From: Sulfobacillus acidophilus DSM 10332
GTDB taxonomy: Bacteria > Bacillota > Sulfobacillia > Sulfobacillales > Sulfobacillaceae
Direction of reading: 5' to 3'
DNA: 64,000 bases
Assembly: GCA_000237975.1 (NCBI GenBank)
Contig: CP003179.1
Coordinates: forward strand, 3,006,270-3,070,269
Positions 36,926 through 63,855 of this stretch are shown here, piece by piece. Position numbers and translations under genes: made by a program. The stretch's first letter is position 1; each line of letters opens with the position of its first letter. Under the pieces are notes generated by a model, which saw only the letters and a program-made list of their open reading frames with translations, did not search any database and was not told where the DNA came from.

Positions 36926-38339
36926 GAGGTTGTCCCAGGTTTCGTGGAATTTCGCTAGCGTATCCTTTCTCATGATTTAACCGATTTGCTCGGTTTTTTG
37001 TTCGGGTTTATGCGCCACTGCTGATTTTAAGGCCGTTTGCAACACGGGAATCTCGCGATAGCCCGGGATCCGCGTCAACGTGTCTTCGATGAAAAAGCTC
37101 GCCGACGCCAACCAGCGTAAGACTTGTTGCCCATTGGTCCAATGTTTGACGTTCTGCGCATGGGTCCGAAATTGACTGTTAAGAGATTCCATGGCATTGG
37201 TGTTGGCCAACGTTTGGCGCAAGAGGCCCGGAAGACCCAAACGCTGCACGGTGAGGGTCTCTTCCAACCCTTCTCGGAGGCTCCCGGCGGCGCCGGGATG
37301 GTCCCGTTCAAGCTCTTTCGCGAGCGCTTCTAATGCCTGGGCGGCCTTGTCCGCATCCGGTTCTTGATACGCTTTCCGTAAGCGCTGGCGGACACGATTT
37401 TCGGCCGATTTCGGCAGGTGGTCCAGCACATTCCGTTGCTTGTGAATTTGGCAGCGTTGGATGAGGACGCGATCCCCCCAGACCTCGCGCACCGCTTTGG
37501 CTAAGGCCTTGGCGCCATCGATGACCACGAGTAATCCGTGCGCGGCCGTCAGGCCGCGGGTGATCAGATCCTGTAATAAGGCCGTGACCACGGTATGATT
37601 TTCGGTGGCCCCTTCCACCAATCCCAGTACGCGTTTGTGGCCTTCCGCATCAATCCCTAAGGCCCCGACCACCATGTGGTCGGCCACGCGCAAACCATCG
37701 ATCATCACCACAACCCACGTCCGGTCATCCAACCGGCGTTGGAGGAAGCGGTCGAGGGCCTGTTGGGTGGCTTGGATAAAGCGCCGGCTCACCGTGCTTT
37801 TGCTGGGGCCCGGCTGCTCCATCGCGGATTCAAAGGCGGCATCGGCATGGCGCTGCTGGCGGCTCGCTAAGCCATACAGCATCCGTTCCAGTACGGCTTG
37901 GGTCGCCAGCGTCGGGTCCTGAAACTGATGGTAGGTGTCTAACGGAATTTCCTCCGAGCCATCGGCTGCCCGCACCCGTGGGTGCGAAACGGAGATTTTG
38001 CGATCCCCCAAAAAGACGCTCCCGACTTCGGTCCCGTGTCGGACCGCTTGGCGTTGCGGATCATGACGTCCTTTAGGCCCCGCTAACTGCTCCACCTCGG
38101 CCGCCATCATCTGTTGCAAGACCTGCAATCCGACCCGGATCGACAGCGCCAATAAGCCGTCTTCCGCATCCTGGAGAATGTCTACCCACGGCACGGTCAG
38201 CGTCTGTTCCGAGCGGGACTTTTTCGTTATACTGGAAGCCACTAGCGATTCCTCCTTCATGATGGGTTAGACCTCTCTAGTAAACCAGAGAGCCATCGGG
38301 ATCGCTAGTTTCAATTTCCACGAAAAATGGGGCATTCTC
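36926..38339 (-). mobile_element. IS256-family element, copy A
   Basis: The element is 1414 bp with inverted repeats GAGAATGCCCCATTTTTCGT at the transposase 5' side and GAGGTTGTCCCAGGTTTCGT at the other. GCAGTGATC (9 bp) is repeated on both sides. The encoded protein is the same as in copy B. Confidence 0.94.
36977..38260 (-). CDS. IS256-family (Mutator-type) transposase
   Basis: This 427-residue protein has the DDE core of Mutator-type transposases: the first Asp in VVMIDGLRVADH, the second in LLVVIDGAKALAKA, the conserved C-x2-H as RCQIHKQRN, and the Glu in NAMESLNSQFR. Full length, no defects seen, and identical in sequence to the product of copy B, so it is probably recent and active. 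Confidence 0.95.
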   Translation of the reverse strand: MKEESLVASSITKKSRSEQTLTVPWVDILQDAEDGLLALSIRVGLQVLQQMMAAEVEQLAGPKGRHDPQRQAVRHGTEVGSVFLGDRKISVSHPRVRAADGSEEIPLDTYHQFQDPTLATQAVLERMLYGLASRQQRHADAAFESAMEQPGPSKSTVSRRFIQATQQALDRFLQRRLDDRTWVVVMIDGLRVADHMVVGALGIDAEGHKRVLGLVEGATENHTVVTALLQDLITRGLTAAHGLLVVIDGAKALAKAVREVWGDRVLIQRCQIHKQRNVLDHLPKSAENRVRQRLRKAYQEPDADKAAQALEALAKELERDHPGAAGSLREGLEETLTVQRLGLPGLLRQTLANTNAMESLNSQFRTHAQNVKHWTNGQQVLRWLASASFFIEDTLTRIPGYREIPVLQTALKSAVAHKPEQKTEQIG

Positions 38340-54354: not shown

Positions 54355-55768
54355 GAGAATGCCCCATTTTTCGTGGAAATTGAAACTAGCGATCCCGATG
54401 GCTCTCTGGTTTACTAGAGAGGTCTAACCCATCATGAAGGAGGAATCGCTAGTGGCTTCCAGTATAACGAAAAAGTCCCGCTCGGAACAGACGCTGACCG
54501 TGCCGTGGGTAGACATTCTCCAGGATGCGGAAGACGGCTTATTGGCGCTGTCGATCCGGGTCGGATTGCAGGTCTTGCAACAGATGATGGCGGCCGAGGT
54601 GGAGCAGTTAGCGGGGCCTAAAGGACGTCATGATCCGCAACGCCAAGCGGTCCGACACGGGACCGAAGTCGGGAGCGTCTTTTTGGGGGATCGCAAAATC
54701 TCCGTTTCGCACCCACGGGTGCGGGCAGCCGATGGCTCGGAGGAAATTCCGTTAGACACCTACCATCAGTTTCAGGACCCGACGCTGGCGACCCAAGCCG
54801 TACTGGAACGGATGCTGTATGGCTTAGCGAGCCGCCAGCAGCGCCATGCCGATGCCGCCTTTGAATCCGCGATGGAGCAGCCGGGCCCCAGCAAAAGCAC
54901 GGTGAGCCGGCGCTTTATCCAAGCCACCCAACAGGCCCTCGACCGCTTCCTCCAACGCCGGTTGGATGACCGGACGTGGGTTGTGGTGATGATCGATGGT
55001 TTGCGCGTGGCCGACCACATGGTGGTCGGGGCCTTAGGGATTGATGCGGAAGGCCACAAACGCGTACTGGGATTGGTGGAAGGGGCCACCGAAAATCATA
55101 CCGTGGTCACGGCCTTATTACAGGATCTGATCACCCGCGGCCTGACGGCCGCGCACGGATTACTCGTGGTCATCGATGGCGCCAAGGCCTTAGCCAAAGC
55201 GGTGCGCGAGGTCTGGGGGGATCGCGTCCTCATCCAACGCTGCCAAATTCACAAGCAACGGAATGTGCTGGACCACCTGCCGAAATCGGCCGAAAATCGT
55301 GTCCGCCAGCGCTTACGGAAAGCGTATCAAGAACCGGATGCGGACAAGGCCGCCCAGGCATTAGAAGCGCTCGCGAAAGAGCTTGAACGGGACCATCCCG
55401 GCGCCGCCGGGAGCCTCCGAGAAGGGTTGGAAGAGACCCTCACCGTGCAGCGTTTGGGTCTTCCGGGCCTCTTGCGCCAAACGTTGGCCAACACCAATGC
55501 CATGGAATCTCTTAACAGTCAATTTCGGACCCATGCGCAGAACGTCAAACATTGGACCAATGGGCAACAAGTCTTACGCTGGTTGGCGTCGGCGAGCTTT
55601 TTCATCGAAGACACGTTGACGCGGATCCCGGGCTATCGCGAGATTCCCGTGTTGCAAACGGCCTTAAAATCAGCAGTGGCGCATAAACCCGAACAAAAAA
55701 CCGAGCAAATCGGTTAAATCATGAGAAAGGATACGCTAGCGAAATTCCACGAAACCTGGGACAACCTC
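54355..55768 (+). mobile_element. IS256-family element, copy B
   Basis: 1414 bp, same ends as copy A, flanked by the 8-bp duplication CACCCGCG (54347-54354 and 55769-55776). It interrupts fapA. Confidence 0.95.
54434..55717 (+). CDS. IS256-family transposase
   Basis: The 427-residue protein is identical to that of copy A. A strong AAGGAGG-type site (ATGAAGGAGGAATCGCTAG) surrounds the start, so the first ATG at 54434 may instead be part of the ribosome-binding site for the GTG at 54452. Confidence 0.94.
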   Translation: MKEESLVASSITKKSRSEQTLTVPWVDILQDAEDGLLALSIRVGLQVLQQMMAAEVEQLAGPKGRHDPQRQAVRHGTEVGSVFLGDRKISVSHPRVRAADGSEEIPLDTYHQFQDPTLATQAVLERMLYGLASRQQRHADAAFESAMEQPGPSKSTVSRRFIQATQQALDRFLQRRLDDRTWVVVMIDGLRVADHMVVGALGIDAEGHKRVLGLVEGATENHTVVTALLQDLITRGLTAAHGLLVVIDGAKALAKAVREVWGDRVLIQRCQIHKQRNVLDHLPKSAENRVRQRLRKAYQEPDADKAAQALEALAKELERDHPGAAGSLREGLEETLTVQRLGLPGLLRQTLANTNAMESLNSQFRTHAQNVKHWTNGQQVLRWLASASFFIEDTLTRIPGYREIPVLQTALKSAVAHKPEQKTEQIG

Positions 55769-57039: not shown

Positions 57040-58500
57040 TTATCCCTCCGAATTGACGGATGCAAAAATCTCCAAAAGTACGCCCACCCATCGGGCGTCA
57101 AGTTGCGAGCCGGCCAGATCCTGCATACGGGACCATGTCGCCGTATGCCCCTCCGTCAACGTTCCCTGGGCATAAACGTCCGCCACGGCATAAATGGCAG
57201 CGGATTCCGGAATGTCCGGGGCGGTCCGTCCCTCCGGGAACCCCTGCCCATCCGGCTGTTCATGGTGATGGGCAATTGTCTCGAGCACACGGGCATCGAG
57301 TCCCAACGGCGCGAGCAACTGACAGCTGAGCCACGGATGTTGACGGTATTGCTGCCAAGCCGCTGGCGACCGACGGGGATGATCCCGGGCCAACGGATCG
57401 ATGGCCGTCAACCCGACGTCAGCCAAACGACAGGCGCTCGCCAAGTCGTTCCGGCGAACGGTCGGCCATTGCAATCGTGCAGCGATGGCTTGGGCGGCAT
57501 GATTCCGCACCTCAGTAATGTAGCTGGCTTGTGGCCAGACGATATCTAAGGCGAACAATGTCTCCAACCACTGAACCGCGCGCCGTAATTCGTCAATCAT
57601 CGCGGAATCTTTGGCAGGGAAACGTCGCAAAAACGACGGGTCCTCGATAGACCGCATCCGGTGCCATGCCTGCCACCGGCCCAGCTGCCCATAGAGCGTT
57701 TGGGCCATGTCTTCAAACCGTCGGGCCAAGAACGATTCCCCGAAGGCCTCCGCAATACGCGCCAATACCGTGCTAAGTCGGGCTAATTCATCCGGCTCGA
57801 TGGCGAGCCAATGCCTCCACATAATTCGCAGGGCGCGTTGCGCCTCGGCCACACTGCCGGCCGTATCCCCGCGGTGAAAGGCTAAAATGGCACGCTCTAC
57901 CAATACAGGCACCGCCCGGTCTTCGGTGGTCGCAACCGACAAGGCCAAATCTAGGTACTGTGTCGCCTCATCCCATTGGCGCAACGCCACGTGACATACG
58001 CCAAGATTAGTGGCCCAAAAATACCGATAACGCATCTGATCTTCCGGGGTCCAATCGGTAGCCACGGAGTGCAACGTTGCAATGGCCTGGGCATAATATT
58101 CATAATCGATCTGGACGGCCGCCAAGTTCAACCCGATACGGGCTCGTAACTCCGGCGAGGTGAATGTCCGCGCCTGCTGGGCCAACGCCCATAACTGTCG
58201 GTAAGCACTGTCGGTCTGCCCCTGTTGGGCCCAGACCAGGGCCTGATGCATCGCAAGGCGCATCGTCCACTCGCTGTCCGCCCGGGAAGGCAAAACCGCA
58301 AGAGCCTGATCAAACGCAGCCAACGCCTCGTCCCAACGGCCCCGACGTGCAGCCACCCGGGCAATGCCGTCCCACGCTGAAACCATCAAACCGGGATCGC
58401 AAACCATGCTGATGACGCGTTGCCAGTACTCGACCGCGGCGTCAAGCCATCCGTGGTCATACCAGCGCTCCCCGAGGGCCACGGCTTGTTCCGGCGTCAT
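57040..58500 (-). CDS. TPR protein with a degenerate HD-GYP domain
   Basis: The ATG at 58500 overlaps the histidine kinase stop (ATGA) and gives 486 residues; in-frame ATG and TTG codons 6 and 10 codons earlier are alternatives. The first 260 residues form tetratricopeptide-like helical repeats (AAVEYWQRVI, EALAAFDQALAVLP, EATQYLDLALSVA). The last 180 resemble HD-GYP: HHHEQPDGQGFPEG keeps the HHE-x-DG-x-GYP motif, but the HD metal pair is lost (LADVGLTAIDP instead of L-H-D-I-G-K). It probably binds or senses rather than cleaves c-di-GMP. Confidence 0.75.
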   Translation of the reverse strand: MTPEQAVALGERWYDHGWLDAAVEYWQRVISMVCDPGLMVSAWDGIARVAARRGRWDEALAAFDQALAVLPSRADSEWTMRLAMHQALVWAQQGQTDSAYRQLWALAQQARTFTSPELRARIGLNLAAVQIDYEYYAQAIATLHSVATDWTPEDQMRYRYFWATNLGVCHVALRQWDEATQYLDLALSVATTEDRAVPVLVERAILAFHRGDTAGSVAEAQRALRIMWRHWLAIEPDELARLSTVLARIAEAFGESFLARRFEDMAQTLYGQLGRWQAWHRMRSIEDPSFLRRFPAKDSAMIDELRRAVQWLETLFALDIVWPQASYITEVRNHAAQAIAARLQWPTVRRNDLASACRLADVGLTAIDPLARDHPRRSPAAWQQYRQHPWLSCQLLAPLGLDARVLETIAHHHEQPDGQGFPEGRTAPDIPESAAIYAVADVYAQGTLTEGHTATWSRMQDLAGSQLDARWVGVLLEIFASVNSEG

Positions 58501-59201
58501 CCGTCCGAACGTTTCCATTGCAACTGACAAACGGTCCCTTCTCCCGGCGCAGACTGAATGGTCCAGGTCGCCCCTACCAAGGCCGCCCGTTGGGCCATCG
58601 TCGTCAGGCCATAATGCCCAGGACGCCCCGGGGTTGGATCAAAGCCCCGCCCATTGTCTTGAATCGTCATCGTCAGCACCGTCTCCGCCAGTTCGGCGGC
58701 AAGCGTCACCTGCGTCGCCTGGGCGTGTTTGGCAATATTAGCGAGGGCTTCTTGAACAATGCGAAACACGCCGACCTTTCCGGCCAGATCCAGGGGCCAA
58801 ACCGGTTCCGGAACCGCCCAATGCACGGTACACGCAATCCCGGTATCGTCGGACCATCGGCGTGCCAACATTTCCAGCCCTCCCGCAAGCCCCGCTTCGT
58901 CCAGCACAATGGGCTGCAAATCATACAGCACTTGCCGCAAGAGATTAATCGCCTCGAGCAAGCGTTCGTTCATCCGCCGCCATTCATCCATGGCCAATGC
59001 TGGATCAACGGCCATTAAGCGCTCCATCATATTGAGGCGCATACTGAGATTCGTTAGCATTTGAACGGGACCATCGTGCAAATCACGGGCCAACCGTTGA
59101 CGTTCCTGTTCAATTAATGCGAAAGCGGCGGCTGACGTAAAGGAATCCTTAACGCGCCGCGATGCGGATTGCCAATTCGATTCGGACTTCTGCTCTACCA
59201 T
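58497..59201 (-). CDS. Soluble sensor histidine kinase, NarL/LiaS type (HisKA_3)
   Basis: This 234-residue kinase has the dimerisation helix with the phospho-acceptor His in RQRLARDLHDGPVQ and a HATPase domain with the N box EALANIAKHAQ, G1 box DNGRGFD and G2 GHYGLTTM. There is no membrane segment or input domain, so signals must come from a partner, perhaps the TPR protein downstream. It overlaps the small secreted gene upstream (ATG within its stop region) and the TPR gene downstream. Confidence 0.88.
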   Translation of the reverse strand: MVEQKSESNWQSASRRVKDSFTSAAAFALIEQERQRLARDLHDGPVQMLTNLSMRLNMMERLMAVDPALAMDEWRRMNERLLEAINLLRQVLYDLQPIVLDEAGLAGGLEMLARRWSDDTGIACTVHWAVPEPVWPLDLAGKVGVFRIVQEALANIAKHAQATQVTLAAELAETVLTMTIQDNGRGFDPTPGRPGHYGLTTMAQRAALVGATWTIQSAPGEGTVCQLQWKRSDG

Positions 59202-59410
59202 ATATATACGCGACCATCATGACTGAACTTGTTCGACGTGCCCGTCGCCGAACGATGAGTCTGTCCTTGGGCACTTCCGGGATTGGATTGCGCGGTAACC
59301 GGTTGTCCCGACATTGCCGAACCACTCCGGATAACATCCGCGTAGGTCGGTGCAGCACTTCCCAACACCATGGCCGCCATGATAGCCCATCCCCAGATGC
59401 GTATGCGCAT
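59195..59410 (-). CDS. Small secreted protein (71 aa) coupled to the histidine kinase gene
   Basis: The ATG has GAGGAG 8 bases upstream. A clear signal peptide (MRIRIWGWAIMAAMVLG) with cleavage site near AAPTYA leaves about 47 residues rich in S, G, Q and H. The last codons overlap the kinase start by 7 bases, so both are co-translated. A secreted peptide beside a kinase may be a signal, but the kinase shown has no membrane segment. Family not recognised. Confidence 0.6.
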   Translation of the reverse strand: MRIRIWGWAIMAAMVLGSAAPTYADVIRSGSAMSGQPVTAQSNPGSAQGQTHRSATGTSNKFSHDGRVYIW

Positions 59411-59432: not shown

Positions 59433-60425
59433 TCAGATTGCCATAGCCTTCTCTCGGTTTTCGGCTTCCACATAGGGTTTTTGCGGAAGGTTCTCAGTTA
59501 TGCCCATTCGCCATGCCGCGTCAGAGTCCTCTTTTACTGCGGCGGTTTTTGTCGCGTGCCACTGACAGGATGGAATGTTGGTGCATTCATTCCCCCTATG
59601 AAACGCCCGTTTGCGCGCCAGGCTCCCGTTAAACCCAGAACGTATTCCCGGTTCGTGTATGCCGATCGCACGAACGCGGCACCAAAAATGGAAAATATTA
59701 CCCCCCCCCCCCCCCCCCCCCGAAAATTCTGATAATAACTGATGGTGCCAGTCTTCGGCGGCAGCGGGCCGTCCGATGGCCCACCCTTGCACGGCATCCA
59801 CCCCCGCCTGGGCTAAATGGGCAATCCAGATCGGATCTTCGACGCCTTCGGCGATTACGTGCGCTCCCAGGGTATGGGCATTGTCTACCCAGTACAGCAA
59901 GGTCCGCGTGTCCTCCTCGATATAGGCCCTGACCAACTCTTGGTCCACCTTGACAAAATCCGGCTGAAGCCATCGCAGGCGCTCCGGTGTCGAATGCGCG
60001 CGCCCGGCATCATCCATGGCCAAGTGGTAGCCCGCCGCTCGCAGGGCCCGACTGCCCCACCGCCCAATGCTCCGGGTCACCGCCGATTCGGTAATTTCCC
60101 AGACGATGCGGTGGGTATGCCCCATGTGCCGTAAAAAAGAAATATCCGCTAAGGTCGCCGCGGCGATATTCACAAACATCAGGCCCGGTAAGCCCTGGGA
60201 GGCCTGAATGGCCGAGGTGACGGCAATGCGATCTAAGGTCCGGGTCAACCCCTGCCGGGCCGCCCAAGCCCAGGCCGACTCCGGGGTGACCCCTTCAGAA
60301 AATCGGGACAACGCCTCAAAGCCCCACAAGGCCCCGGATACATGACGGATCGGTTGAAAAACGATGGTCACCGCACCCTGATCGATCGTGTGTTGCAAAA
60401 TGGCCCCAATCTGATCCTCGCCCAC
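59433..60425 (-). CDS. EAL-domain c-di-GMP phosphodiesterase with a poly-G tract
   Basis: A GTG with GGAGGGGG about 12 bases upstream starts a 330-residue frame. Residues 1-235 are a complete EAL domain with the expected catalytic residues: FEALSRF, the Asn in FVNIAAA, WEITES, AMDDAGRAH, FVKVDQ, VIAEGVED and QGWAIGRP. It should cleave c-di-GMP to pGpG. Just after the domain come seven Gly codons made from 21 consecutive G, then an 88-residue tail of unknown nature. With one base more or less the protein would instead end at once (TAA) or carry a different tail of about 60 residues. It is first in the leftward operon with the next three genes. Confidence 0.82.
   Translation of the reverse strand: MGEDQIGAILQHTIDQGAVTIVFQPIRHVSGALWGFEALSRFSEGVTPESAWAWAARQGLTRTLDRIAVTSAIQASQGLPGLMFVNIAAATLADISFLRHMGHTHRIVWEITESAVTRSIGRWGSRALRAAGYHLAMDDAGRAHSTPERLRWLQPDFVKVDQELVRAYIEEDTRTLLYWVDNAHTLGAHVIAEGVEDPIWIAHLAQAGVDAVQGWAIGRPAAAEDWHHQLLSEFSGGGGGGGNIFHFWCRVRAIGIHEPGIRSGFNGSLARKRAFHRGNECTNIPSCQWHATKTAAVKEDSDAAWRMGITENLPQKPYVEAENREKAMAI
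59701..59721. repeat. Homopolymer of 21 C (G on the coding strand of the EAL gene)
   Basis: This is by far the longest single-base run in the window. Its place inside a coding frame, right after a complete catalytic domain, is typical of slipped-strand phase-variation tracts. Its exact length may be uncertain because such runs are hard to sequence. Confidence 0.85.
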
Positions 60426-60687
60426 CTATGGCCGCCCCCTCCGATGTCATGTCATGGCGTATGGCACGACGCTTTATGGCAATGTTCGGGCCCCATCGGC
60501 ATTTTCCTGCTTGAGGCCAAGACATTTTTCGTCATCGGCGGAAGTCCCTAGCCCAATAATCTTTGAAAAGACCCGCAGGAATTTTGGCCCAAAATGGCGA
60601 AATGATTCATCATGGACTGACCGTACGCGATCTCGTATGCCCAGAGGAGTTTTGCTCGGTGTTGTTGAGCGATTTGATGGTGCCCAT

Positions 60688-61258
60688 ATGTCACCCCACC
60701 CCCATCACGTAAGCCCGCGGCCGTACCGTCGGCGGTTTTGGTGGCATACGATGGCGGTGTTCATGGGCTACGGGATCCTGGCGGTCGGCATAGCCTACGG
60801 AAACATACGGACCATGACACCGACCCGGGATATCGCACTCGGCCGGATGATGGTCCTGGAGCTCTTCTGTACCCTGGGGCTGGTGATGTTCTTATACCGC
60901 CTCTGGCTTCAAGACATTGTCCATCCCTTGCAACACCTGGCGGAGCGCGATGATTTGACAGGGGTTTGGCGCTCTGGAGCGTTTTGGAGGCATGCCGATC
61001 GTGCATTAAAACGGCTACAGCATTCGGCCGATCCTCACGATACCTTAGCTTTTGCGTTTCTCGACATCGATGATTTCAAGGCCATTAACGACACCTATGG
61101 GCACCTCATGGGTGACGCGGTGCTCCGCGCGATGGGGCGCCACTTGCGCCAAGGACTGCGTTCCGGCGATAGTATTGGACGACTAGGCGGTGAGGAATTT
61201 GGGTGCATTTTGCGACAGGTCGAGGCGGACACGGTCCGCGACCTTTTCATGCGGATCC
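60688..61258 (+). pseudogene. Membrane-bound GGDEF diguanylate cyclase, N-terminal part
   Basis: The ATG at 60688 is one of several possible starts. A short basic lead is followed by two hydrophobic helices (WWHTMAVFMGYGILAVGIAY, VLELFCTLGLVMFLY) and the GGDEF domain: DDLTGVWRS, LDIDDFKAINDTYGH and the active site GRLGGEEF. An RxxD inhibitory site (RSGD) lies at the normal distance before it. IS256 copy C cuts the gene at 61258. The last part is at 63907 onward. It is divergent from the EAL gene. Confidence 0.8.
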
Positions 61259-61292
61259 GAGAATGCCCCATTTTTCGTGGAAATTGAAACTA

Positions 61293-62571: not shown

Positions 62572-63855
62572 ATGAAGGAGGAATCGCTAGTGACTTCCAG
62601 TATAACGAAAAAGCCCCGCCCGGACCAGACGCTGACCGTGCCATGGGTCGATATCCTGCACGATGCGCAGGATGGGCTGTTGGCCCTGTCGGTGCGCATC
62701 GGATTGCAGGTTTTGCCACAGATGATGGCCACCGAAGTCGAGCAGTTAGCAGGACCCCCAGGGCGGCATAATCCGCACCGTCAAGCGGTGCGACATGGAA
62801 CCGAAGCCGGCTGTGTGTATCGGGGCGATCGGAAAATCGCCGTCAGCCACCCCCGGGTCCGGGCGACCGATGGGTCGGGCGAAATTCCTTTAGAGACCTA
62901 TCATCAATTTCAGGACCCGACCCTCGCCACCCAGACGGTCCTGGAACGGATGCTCTATGGCTTAGCCAGCCGTCAACAGGTCCATGCGGACGCGGCCTGG
63001 GAAGCGGCCGCCGAGCAACCCGGCCCCAGCAAAAGCACGGTCAGCCGACGATTTATTCAGGCCACCCAACAAGCGCTCGACCGCTTTCTGAACCGACGGT
63101 TGGACGACCGGACGTGGGTCGTGGTGATGATTGATGGGCTGCGCGTGGCCGACCACATGGTGGTCGGGGCATTGGGCATTGATGCGGAAGGCCATAAACG
63201 CGTGCTGGGATTGGTGGAAGGGGCCACCGAAAATCATACGGTGGTCATGGCCTTATTGCAGGATCTGATCACCCGCGGCCTGACGGCCGCGCAGGGGTTG
63301 CTCGTGGTGATCGATGGCGCGAAAGCCTTGGCCAAAGCCGTGCGGGAGGTGTGGGGGCATCAAGTCCTGATCCAACGCTGCCAAATCCATAAGCAACGGA
63401 ACGTGCTGGACCACTTGCCCAAATCGGCAGAACACCGCATCCGCCAAAAATTACGTAAAGCCTATCGGGAACCGGATGCGGACACGGCTGCCCAAGCCTT
63501 AGAAGCGATCGCCAAGGAATTGGAACGCGATCATCCTGGCGCTGCCGGGAGCCTCCGAGAAGGATTGGAAGAGACCCTCACCGTCCATCGCTTAGGCCTT
63601 CCAGGGCTCTTACGCCAAACGTTAGCCAACACGAATGCCATGGAATCCCTCAACAGTCAATTCCGAACCCATGCGCAGAATGTGAAACATTGGACCAACG
63701 GGCAACAAGTCCTACGCTGGTTAGCTTCGGCCAGTTTCTTCATTGAGGACACGTTAACCCGCATTCCCGGTTATCGCGAGATACCGTTGTTACAAACGGC
63801 CTTAAAAGCCGCCGTATCTCCCCAAATCAACCAAAAAACCGAGGAAATCGGTTAA
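62572..63855 (+). CDS. IS256-family transposase, divergent copy
   Basis: The 427-residue protein keeps all catalytic motifs (VVMIDGLRVADH, LLVVIDGAKALAKA, RCQIHKQRN, NAMESLNSQFR) and is full length, but differs from copies A and B at dozens of positions, mostly in the first 150 residues. Its promoter side is separated from the terminal repeat by the IS630. Confidence 0.94.
   Translation: MKEESLVTSSITKKPRPDQTLTVPWVDILHDAQDGLLALSVRIGLQVLPQMMATEVEQLAGPPGRHNPHRQAVRHGTEAGCVYRGDRKIAVSHPRVRATDGSGEIPLETYHQFQDPTLATQTVLERMLYGLASRQQVHADAAWEAAAEQPGPSKSTVSRRFIQATQQALDRFLNRRLDDRTWVVVMIDGLRVADHMVVGALGIDAEGHKRVLGLVEGATENHTVVMALLQDLITRGLTAAQGLLVVIDGAKALAKAVREVWGHQVLIQRCQIHKQRNVLDHLPKSAEHRIRQKLRKAYREPDADTAAQALEAIAKELERDHPGAAGSLREGLEETLTVHRLGLPGLLRQTLANTNAMESLNSQFRTHAQNVKHWTNGQQVLRWLASASFFIEDTLTRIPGYREIPLLQTALKAAVSPQINQKTEEIG

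Follow-up and report, generated by a model that had tools for sequence, protein, structure and literature searches.

A 21-nt G tract behind the EAL domain of a Sulfobacillus acidophilus gene, and a possible Sulfobacillaceae class of G-tract elements beside signaling genes

An EAL-domain gene of Sulfobacillus acidophilus DSM 10332 carries an uninterrupted run of 21 G residues just past the part that encodes its catalytic domain. Considered together with runs found in relatives, it quite possibly belongs to a Sulfobacillaceae-specific class of slippage-prone long G-tract elements, of the form AATT(Y/N)C-Gn, that would tune adjoining signaling genes at the DNA or RNA level. In the 64,000-nt stretch of the genome that was analyzed (the window), plus-strand positions 59701–59721 are exactly 21 C, so that the coding (minus) strand has 21 G, with TCAGAATTTTC ahead of the run and TAATATTTTCC behind it; positions 59682–59732 of the minus strand read TCAGAATTTTC-G21-TAATATTTTCCATTTTTGG. 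This confirms the first-pass annotation, which had placed a 21-base poly-G immediately behind the EAL domain. The count of 21 comes from 454 and Illumina GAii data, and the true number could differ by one base or more.

The genome of S. acidophilus NAL-T (= DSM 10332) is reported at 3,472,898 + 84,933 bp (PMC3558970). In these 3,557,831 bp the tract is the only run of at least 14 G or C, and the remaining 18 runs of at least 8 are all 8–10 long. Within the window there are 13 overlapping matches to nine consecutive Gs, every one of them inside the tract, whereas shuffled sequences average 3.4 and never exceed 11. For a 3.56-Mb genome this is a homopolymer beyond chance length, as in contingency loci. 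Features of the locus are collected in Table 1.

Table 1. The G tract, its flanks, and neighboring genes (positions within the window).
Feature	Position	Strand	Remarks
Homopolymeric tract, 21 G	59701–59721	-	Sole run of at least 14 in the genome
Upstream flank GAATTTTC, with AATT core	59722–59729	-	Core common to sister tracts
Downstream flank TAATATTTTCCATTTTTGG	59682–59700	-	Best matches in 34 genomes sit behind G16 (G015 MCP leader) and G11 (G019 EAL)
EAL-domain ORF (c-di-GMP phosphodiesterase type), GTG 60425 to TGA 59433	59433–60425	-	Pfam match
Small ORF, 71 aa, signal-peptide-like N-terminus	59195–59410	-	Marginal coding score
HisKA_3/HATPase_c histidine kinase, downstream operon	58497–59201	-	Domain match
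TPR + HD_5 protein, downstream operon	57040–58530	-	HD_5 E=1.4e-15
5' portion of the divergent GGDEF (diguanylate cyclase) gene	60454–61287	+	GGDEF profile positions 2–104 of 161 only

The tract lies in frame within the EAL gene, as had been annotated. At n=21 the ORF encodes an EAL domain at residues 10–220 (PF00563, E=1.1e-33), then seven Gly and a tail of 88 residues; solved EAL structures were found among the relatives of the protein. The activity earlier ascribed to the domain is putative. The domain is complete, and its metal- and catalytic-type residues (E37, N86, E110, D138, D139, K159, E196, and Q213) are invariant in 12 orthologues. In both respects the protein resembles stand-alone EAL phosphodiesterases, from which it differs in being without the usual sensor domains and in having a G run and a predicted disordered tail after the domain. 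Translation of the three frames gives the 88-residue tail at n=21 and an immediate TAA at n+1, as first described; at n-1 the tail has 55 residues, not about 60. The 88-residue frame does run to 22 nt short of the next gene (TGA at 59433–59435, ATG at 59410).

Neither tail looks like conserved protein. None of the orthologues carries the 88- or the 55-residue version, most of them stopping roughly 0–25 residues past the domain with or without a tract, and no homologues of either tail were found among the fetched loci. Codon scores per codon are -0.035 for the 88-residue tail and -0.118 for the 55-residue one, against +0.439 for the EAL part; in 88-codon windows used as reference, genes average +0.305 with a 5% point of -0.034, and wrong frames -0.186, so both tails fall beyond, or just at the limit of, what genes score and are non-coding-like. 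In the predicted structure the EAL domain is confident, while residues 236–330 have pLDDT below 50 and are predicted to be disordered. The absent homologues and the codon scores speak against a conserved protein tail, and together with the low pLDDT from residue 236 onward they indicate that the tail is probably incidental. Switching among tails of 0, 55, and 88 residues would largely be a side effect. Of the suggestion of a phase-variable c-di-GMP enzyme, a length-unstable element is plausible and survives; slippage that switches the protein tail is unsupported, the tails being unshared, non-coding-like, and predicted disordered, and tracts of this kind, as described below, being present also in non-coding leaders of MCP and EAL genes in relatives. 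Homologues that end right after the EAL domain with no tract had been named as evidence that would count against the idea; this describes some orthologues and is false for others.

Orthologous EAL genes in other genera, at about 44% identity (range 37–46%), carry G runs at the matching codon position after the domain. In MAG AMDSBA3 (G019) it is 11 long, and in G024 there are six Gs followed directly by TAA. The contig of S. benefaciens AMDSBA4 (G021) ends inside the run after at least 10 Gs, and that of S. harzensis DSM 109850 (G028) after at least 20; G013 and G025 have short runs of five and four. Between species, then, the run varies in length (21, 11, and 6, with one S. acidophilus sequence in the comparison). 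It is absent from most Sulfobacillus orthologues and several genera have none at all, and on the EAL tree its presence is patchy, forcing at least two changes.

Sister tracts were found at other signaling genes. Two Solfatara MAG species (G006 and G015) have G16 some 200 nt ahead of an MCP gene. The two MCPs are 90% identical over their first 270 residues and the leaders about 40% identical, which is near-random; conserved in the leaders are only an AGAnAATTCTnC-G16-TA block and the ribosome-binding site plus start codon. By sequence comparison, the block is footprint-type evidence that the run is constrained. At one contig end in genus g9, 14 Gs stand directly before DNA that aligns with the EAL leader of a sister species (score 118, versus 59 for the best of 300 shuffles). 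A G16 run lies behind an MCP gene, and another EAL leader probably follows it (21/28 bases, not significant by shuffling). An AATTCA-Gn run stands beside a DUF520 (YajQ) gene, where the YajQ-linked contigs have G15 and G10 as their sole internal indel in 1,618 aligned bases at 99.6% identity; the pair may be one contaminating contig. These near-identical contigs (G003:C79 and G030:C160; L232, with its tract at 140, and L239) are from MAGs assigned to two genera, and their sharing reflects either mobile DNA or bin contamination.

Some further observations concern the same set of genomes. Several relatives are MAGs with poly-G artifacts at contig ends. Two of the g9 MAGs (G008 and G017; L079, L138, L139, and L140) have contigs ending in G52–G75, sometimes beside real G tracts; these runs look like two-color sequencing artifacts and were set aside. 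The G tracts at L141 and L142 are preceded, at a distance of about 50 nt, by promoter-like pairs that resemble each other (TTGAGA-N18-TATAGT at one and TTGGAG-N18-TAGGAT at the other) and stand a few bases ahead of an ATG; as sequence matches, they suggest a short leader before the G run. The complete chromosome of S. thermotolerans Kr1 has a GAATTC-G10 downstream of panC, with no signaling gene near (L236, G023:C1:1271772).

The flanks of the tracts are also shared. Upstream flanks of sister tracts read AATTCTTC, AATTCTGC, AATTCT, AATTC, and AATTCA, so that the recurring pattern is AATT(Y/N)C-Gn, with a common downstream motif in some cases. AATT is present at most 9 nt upstream of 7 of 53 family runs of at least 11 G, versus 0–2 in control windows, and the 34 family genomes contain six AATT-N0-5-G12 sites (AATT with at least 12 G), the reversed control none. 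The frequencies given here for flanks and gene classes overstate significance, since both AATT and the classes of gene were noticed only once the data had been seen. Outside the family there are two such sites in 120 other genomes of the class, with hits in the control as well. All six family sites, which represent five loci (four without DUF520), are near EAL, MCP, or DUF520/YajQ-like genes, while about 2% of random 3-kb loci would be expected to hold an EAL or MCP gene (our own estimate, from about 17 such genes per genome).

Downstream of the run, the window flank shares 17 of 22 positions with that of the MCP tract in G015 and 16 of 22 with that of the EAL tract in G019, with per-pair frequencies of 5e-6 and 8e-5, respectively, under a random AT-rich null. 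A mismatch-tolerant scan with this flank gave matches with up to two mismatches only at three tract-borne sites. A relaxed search with the motif alone was discarded: its other hits have three mismatches and no tract, and the excess over the reversed control is modest (15 versus 9). Scans for G8+TAWT and for G6+motif were likewise discarded, the extra hits being chance matches, mostly in coding DNA.

Searches for known elements at the tract were largely empty. Apart from tRNAs, no Rfam family reached the gathering threshold in the window, seven loci gave only a chance hit (E 0.8), and a riboswitch or other known RNA family was dropped on this result. No sigma-70-type promoter or intrinsic terminator was found around the tract in a consensus scan, from which organism-specific promoters may differ. 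Ordinary RNA folding showed no unusual stability (z 0.56, -0.30, and 1.52) in a program that does not model quadruplexes; this speaks against a hairpin. An exact-flank scan of viral contigs found no further copy of the locus. None of the papers searched links Sulfobacillus with phase variation, or ties a poly-G tract to a phase-variable diguanylate cyclase.

The next gene on the minus strand is a small ORF beginning 290 nt downstream of the tract, with a ribosome-binding site (GAGGAGTGAAG). It overlaps the start of the kinase gene by 7 nt, and it has no Pfam match and no relatives among the fetched loci. Further along the operon, the TPR-HD_5 protein has an HD-GYP-like HHEQPDGQGFPEG motif, read in the sequence. 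On the other side of the EAL gene, the GGDEF gene is split by IS630-like and IS256-like elements, with its 3' remainder beyond the IS copies (L226, 1226–1528); in S. harzensis (L229) the divergent EAL/GGDEF pair is intact. Three ORFs in the window (36980–38260, 54434–55717, and 62572–63855) are each 427 aa. The ORFs at 54434 and 62572 encode IS256-type transposases that closely resemble each other; the one at 36980–38260 was matched to them by length only.

A length-unstable, contingency-type element is plausible here because the tract is beyond chance length, the runs at the EAL site measure 21, 11, 6, at least 10, and at least 20, and one sister tract differs by 5 G between copies. The explanation proposed for the class as a whole is that AATT(Y/N)C-Gn elements, which border c-di-GMP and chemotaxis genes or lie within their 5' leaders, would act on those genes through the number of Gs. 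At the window locus n would be altered by slipped-strand replication, and would in turn tune expression of the neighboring signaling genes in a graded way, through the transcript or the promoter. The effect could fall on the downstream small ORF, kinase, and TPR-HD operon, on how stable the EAL transcript is, or on both. The coupling to the kinase operon raised in the first-pass annotation is possible, through RNA or DNA more likely than through the frame of the tail. The EAL gene of G019 is followed by a convergent gene, with nothing co-directional behind the tract, so a downstream-operon target would not be general.

The tract could also be a neutral mutational hotspot, a short GGG-rich gene end that slippage has lengthened, without regulatory function and tolerated because it lies past the domain or inside a leader. 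The run is placed just past the last needed residue, it is missing from many orthologues and patchily distributed, and the relatives hold many runs of at least 12 G at unrelated places, all of which such an origin would accommodate. It fits less well with the G16 and its flank persisting as one block in diverged MCP leaders, with a flanking motif common to unrelated genes, or with the long AATT-type tracts all adjoining signaling genes, and is considered somewhat unlikely. Lower again is the likelihood of coding phase variation, with slippage swapping the EAL tail and so affecting stability, localization, or translational coupling to the next ORF. It would be in keeping with a tract that is in frame, with the frame at n=21 remaining open almost to the next ATG (an 88-codon opening in some frame is matched by 3.8% of shuffles), and with the immediate stop at n=6 in G024; set against these are the missing homologues of the tails, their low codon scores relative to the gene mean, and their predicted disorder, and the sister tracts are non-coding.

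An unbroken run of 21 G is able to form a quadruplex. The tract might therefore be a static structural element, a G-quadruplex or other RNA or DNA block serving as a terminator, a stability element, or a barrier to translation, for which the exact length would be irrelevant. Its position would suit such a role, at the 3' ends of the EAL-group genes and within leaders elsewhere, and assemblies break at it. Ordinary folding is unremarkable, although quadruplexes are outside the program's model, and a quadruplex needs no uninterrupted pure run, which is the most slippage-prone form; on balance a static role is improbable. Least credible, and very improbable, is an artifact of sequencing or assembly in the length or presence of the tract. 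Homopolymer counts by 454 are error-prone, and relatives do have implausible G52–G75 runs at contig ends; however, independent genomes have runs at the same site, contig-internal in G019, G024, G006, and G015, and the DSM 10332 genome was finished with 454, Illumina GAii, and 640 finishing reactions (PMC3558970). A two-color "dark G" artifact is unlikely with data from those two instruments.

For a graded tract element of the proposed kind, the nearest working analogue would seem to be the Helicobacter pylori tlpB leader, in which the length of a G repeat sets control by the small RNA RepG and gives graded expression (PMC8295292). The likeness is with the relatives that have G16 in an MCP leader (G006 and G015) and G14 in an EAL leader (g9), whereas the window run is at the 3' end of the EAL ORF, well before the next ORF, and the lineage is unrelated. 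A C/U-rich small RNA pairs with the run in H. pylori; here the Rfam scans gave no relevant hit. In the Bordetella pertussis fim promoters, the length of a C stretch affects transcription (PMC1891110). There too a homopolymeric G/C tract adjoins a conserved flank, and its length varies between strains, but the fim tract is between an activator site and the -10, while no promoter was recognized at the window tract by consensus. The Clostridioides difficile c-di-GMP phosphodiesterases PdcB and PdcC are phase-variable by upstream DNA inversion (PMC9286219); reversible variation is similarly proposed here for a c-di-GMP phosphodiesterase gene, with a homopolymer tract in place of inversion, of which none was seen.

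A broader proposal, possible but on the doubtful side, is that the Sulfobacillaceae employ a dedicated family of length-variable AATT-C-Gn elements as rheostats, adjusting c-di-GMP and chemotaxis genes by degrees. Such a family would be the convergent equivalent, in environmental Gram-positive bacteria, of the G-repeat leader in H. pylori, and a common trans-acting factor that recognizes AATT(C)-Gn might read it. The familiar examples of homopolymer contingency loci come from host-adapted pathogens. If the proposal is true, free-living, acidophilic, ore-leaching biofilm formers would share the homopolymer contingency strategy, tied in their case to motility and c-di-GMP, and the tracts would offer a direct means of testing how mineral attachment varies from cell to cell.
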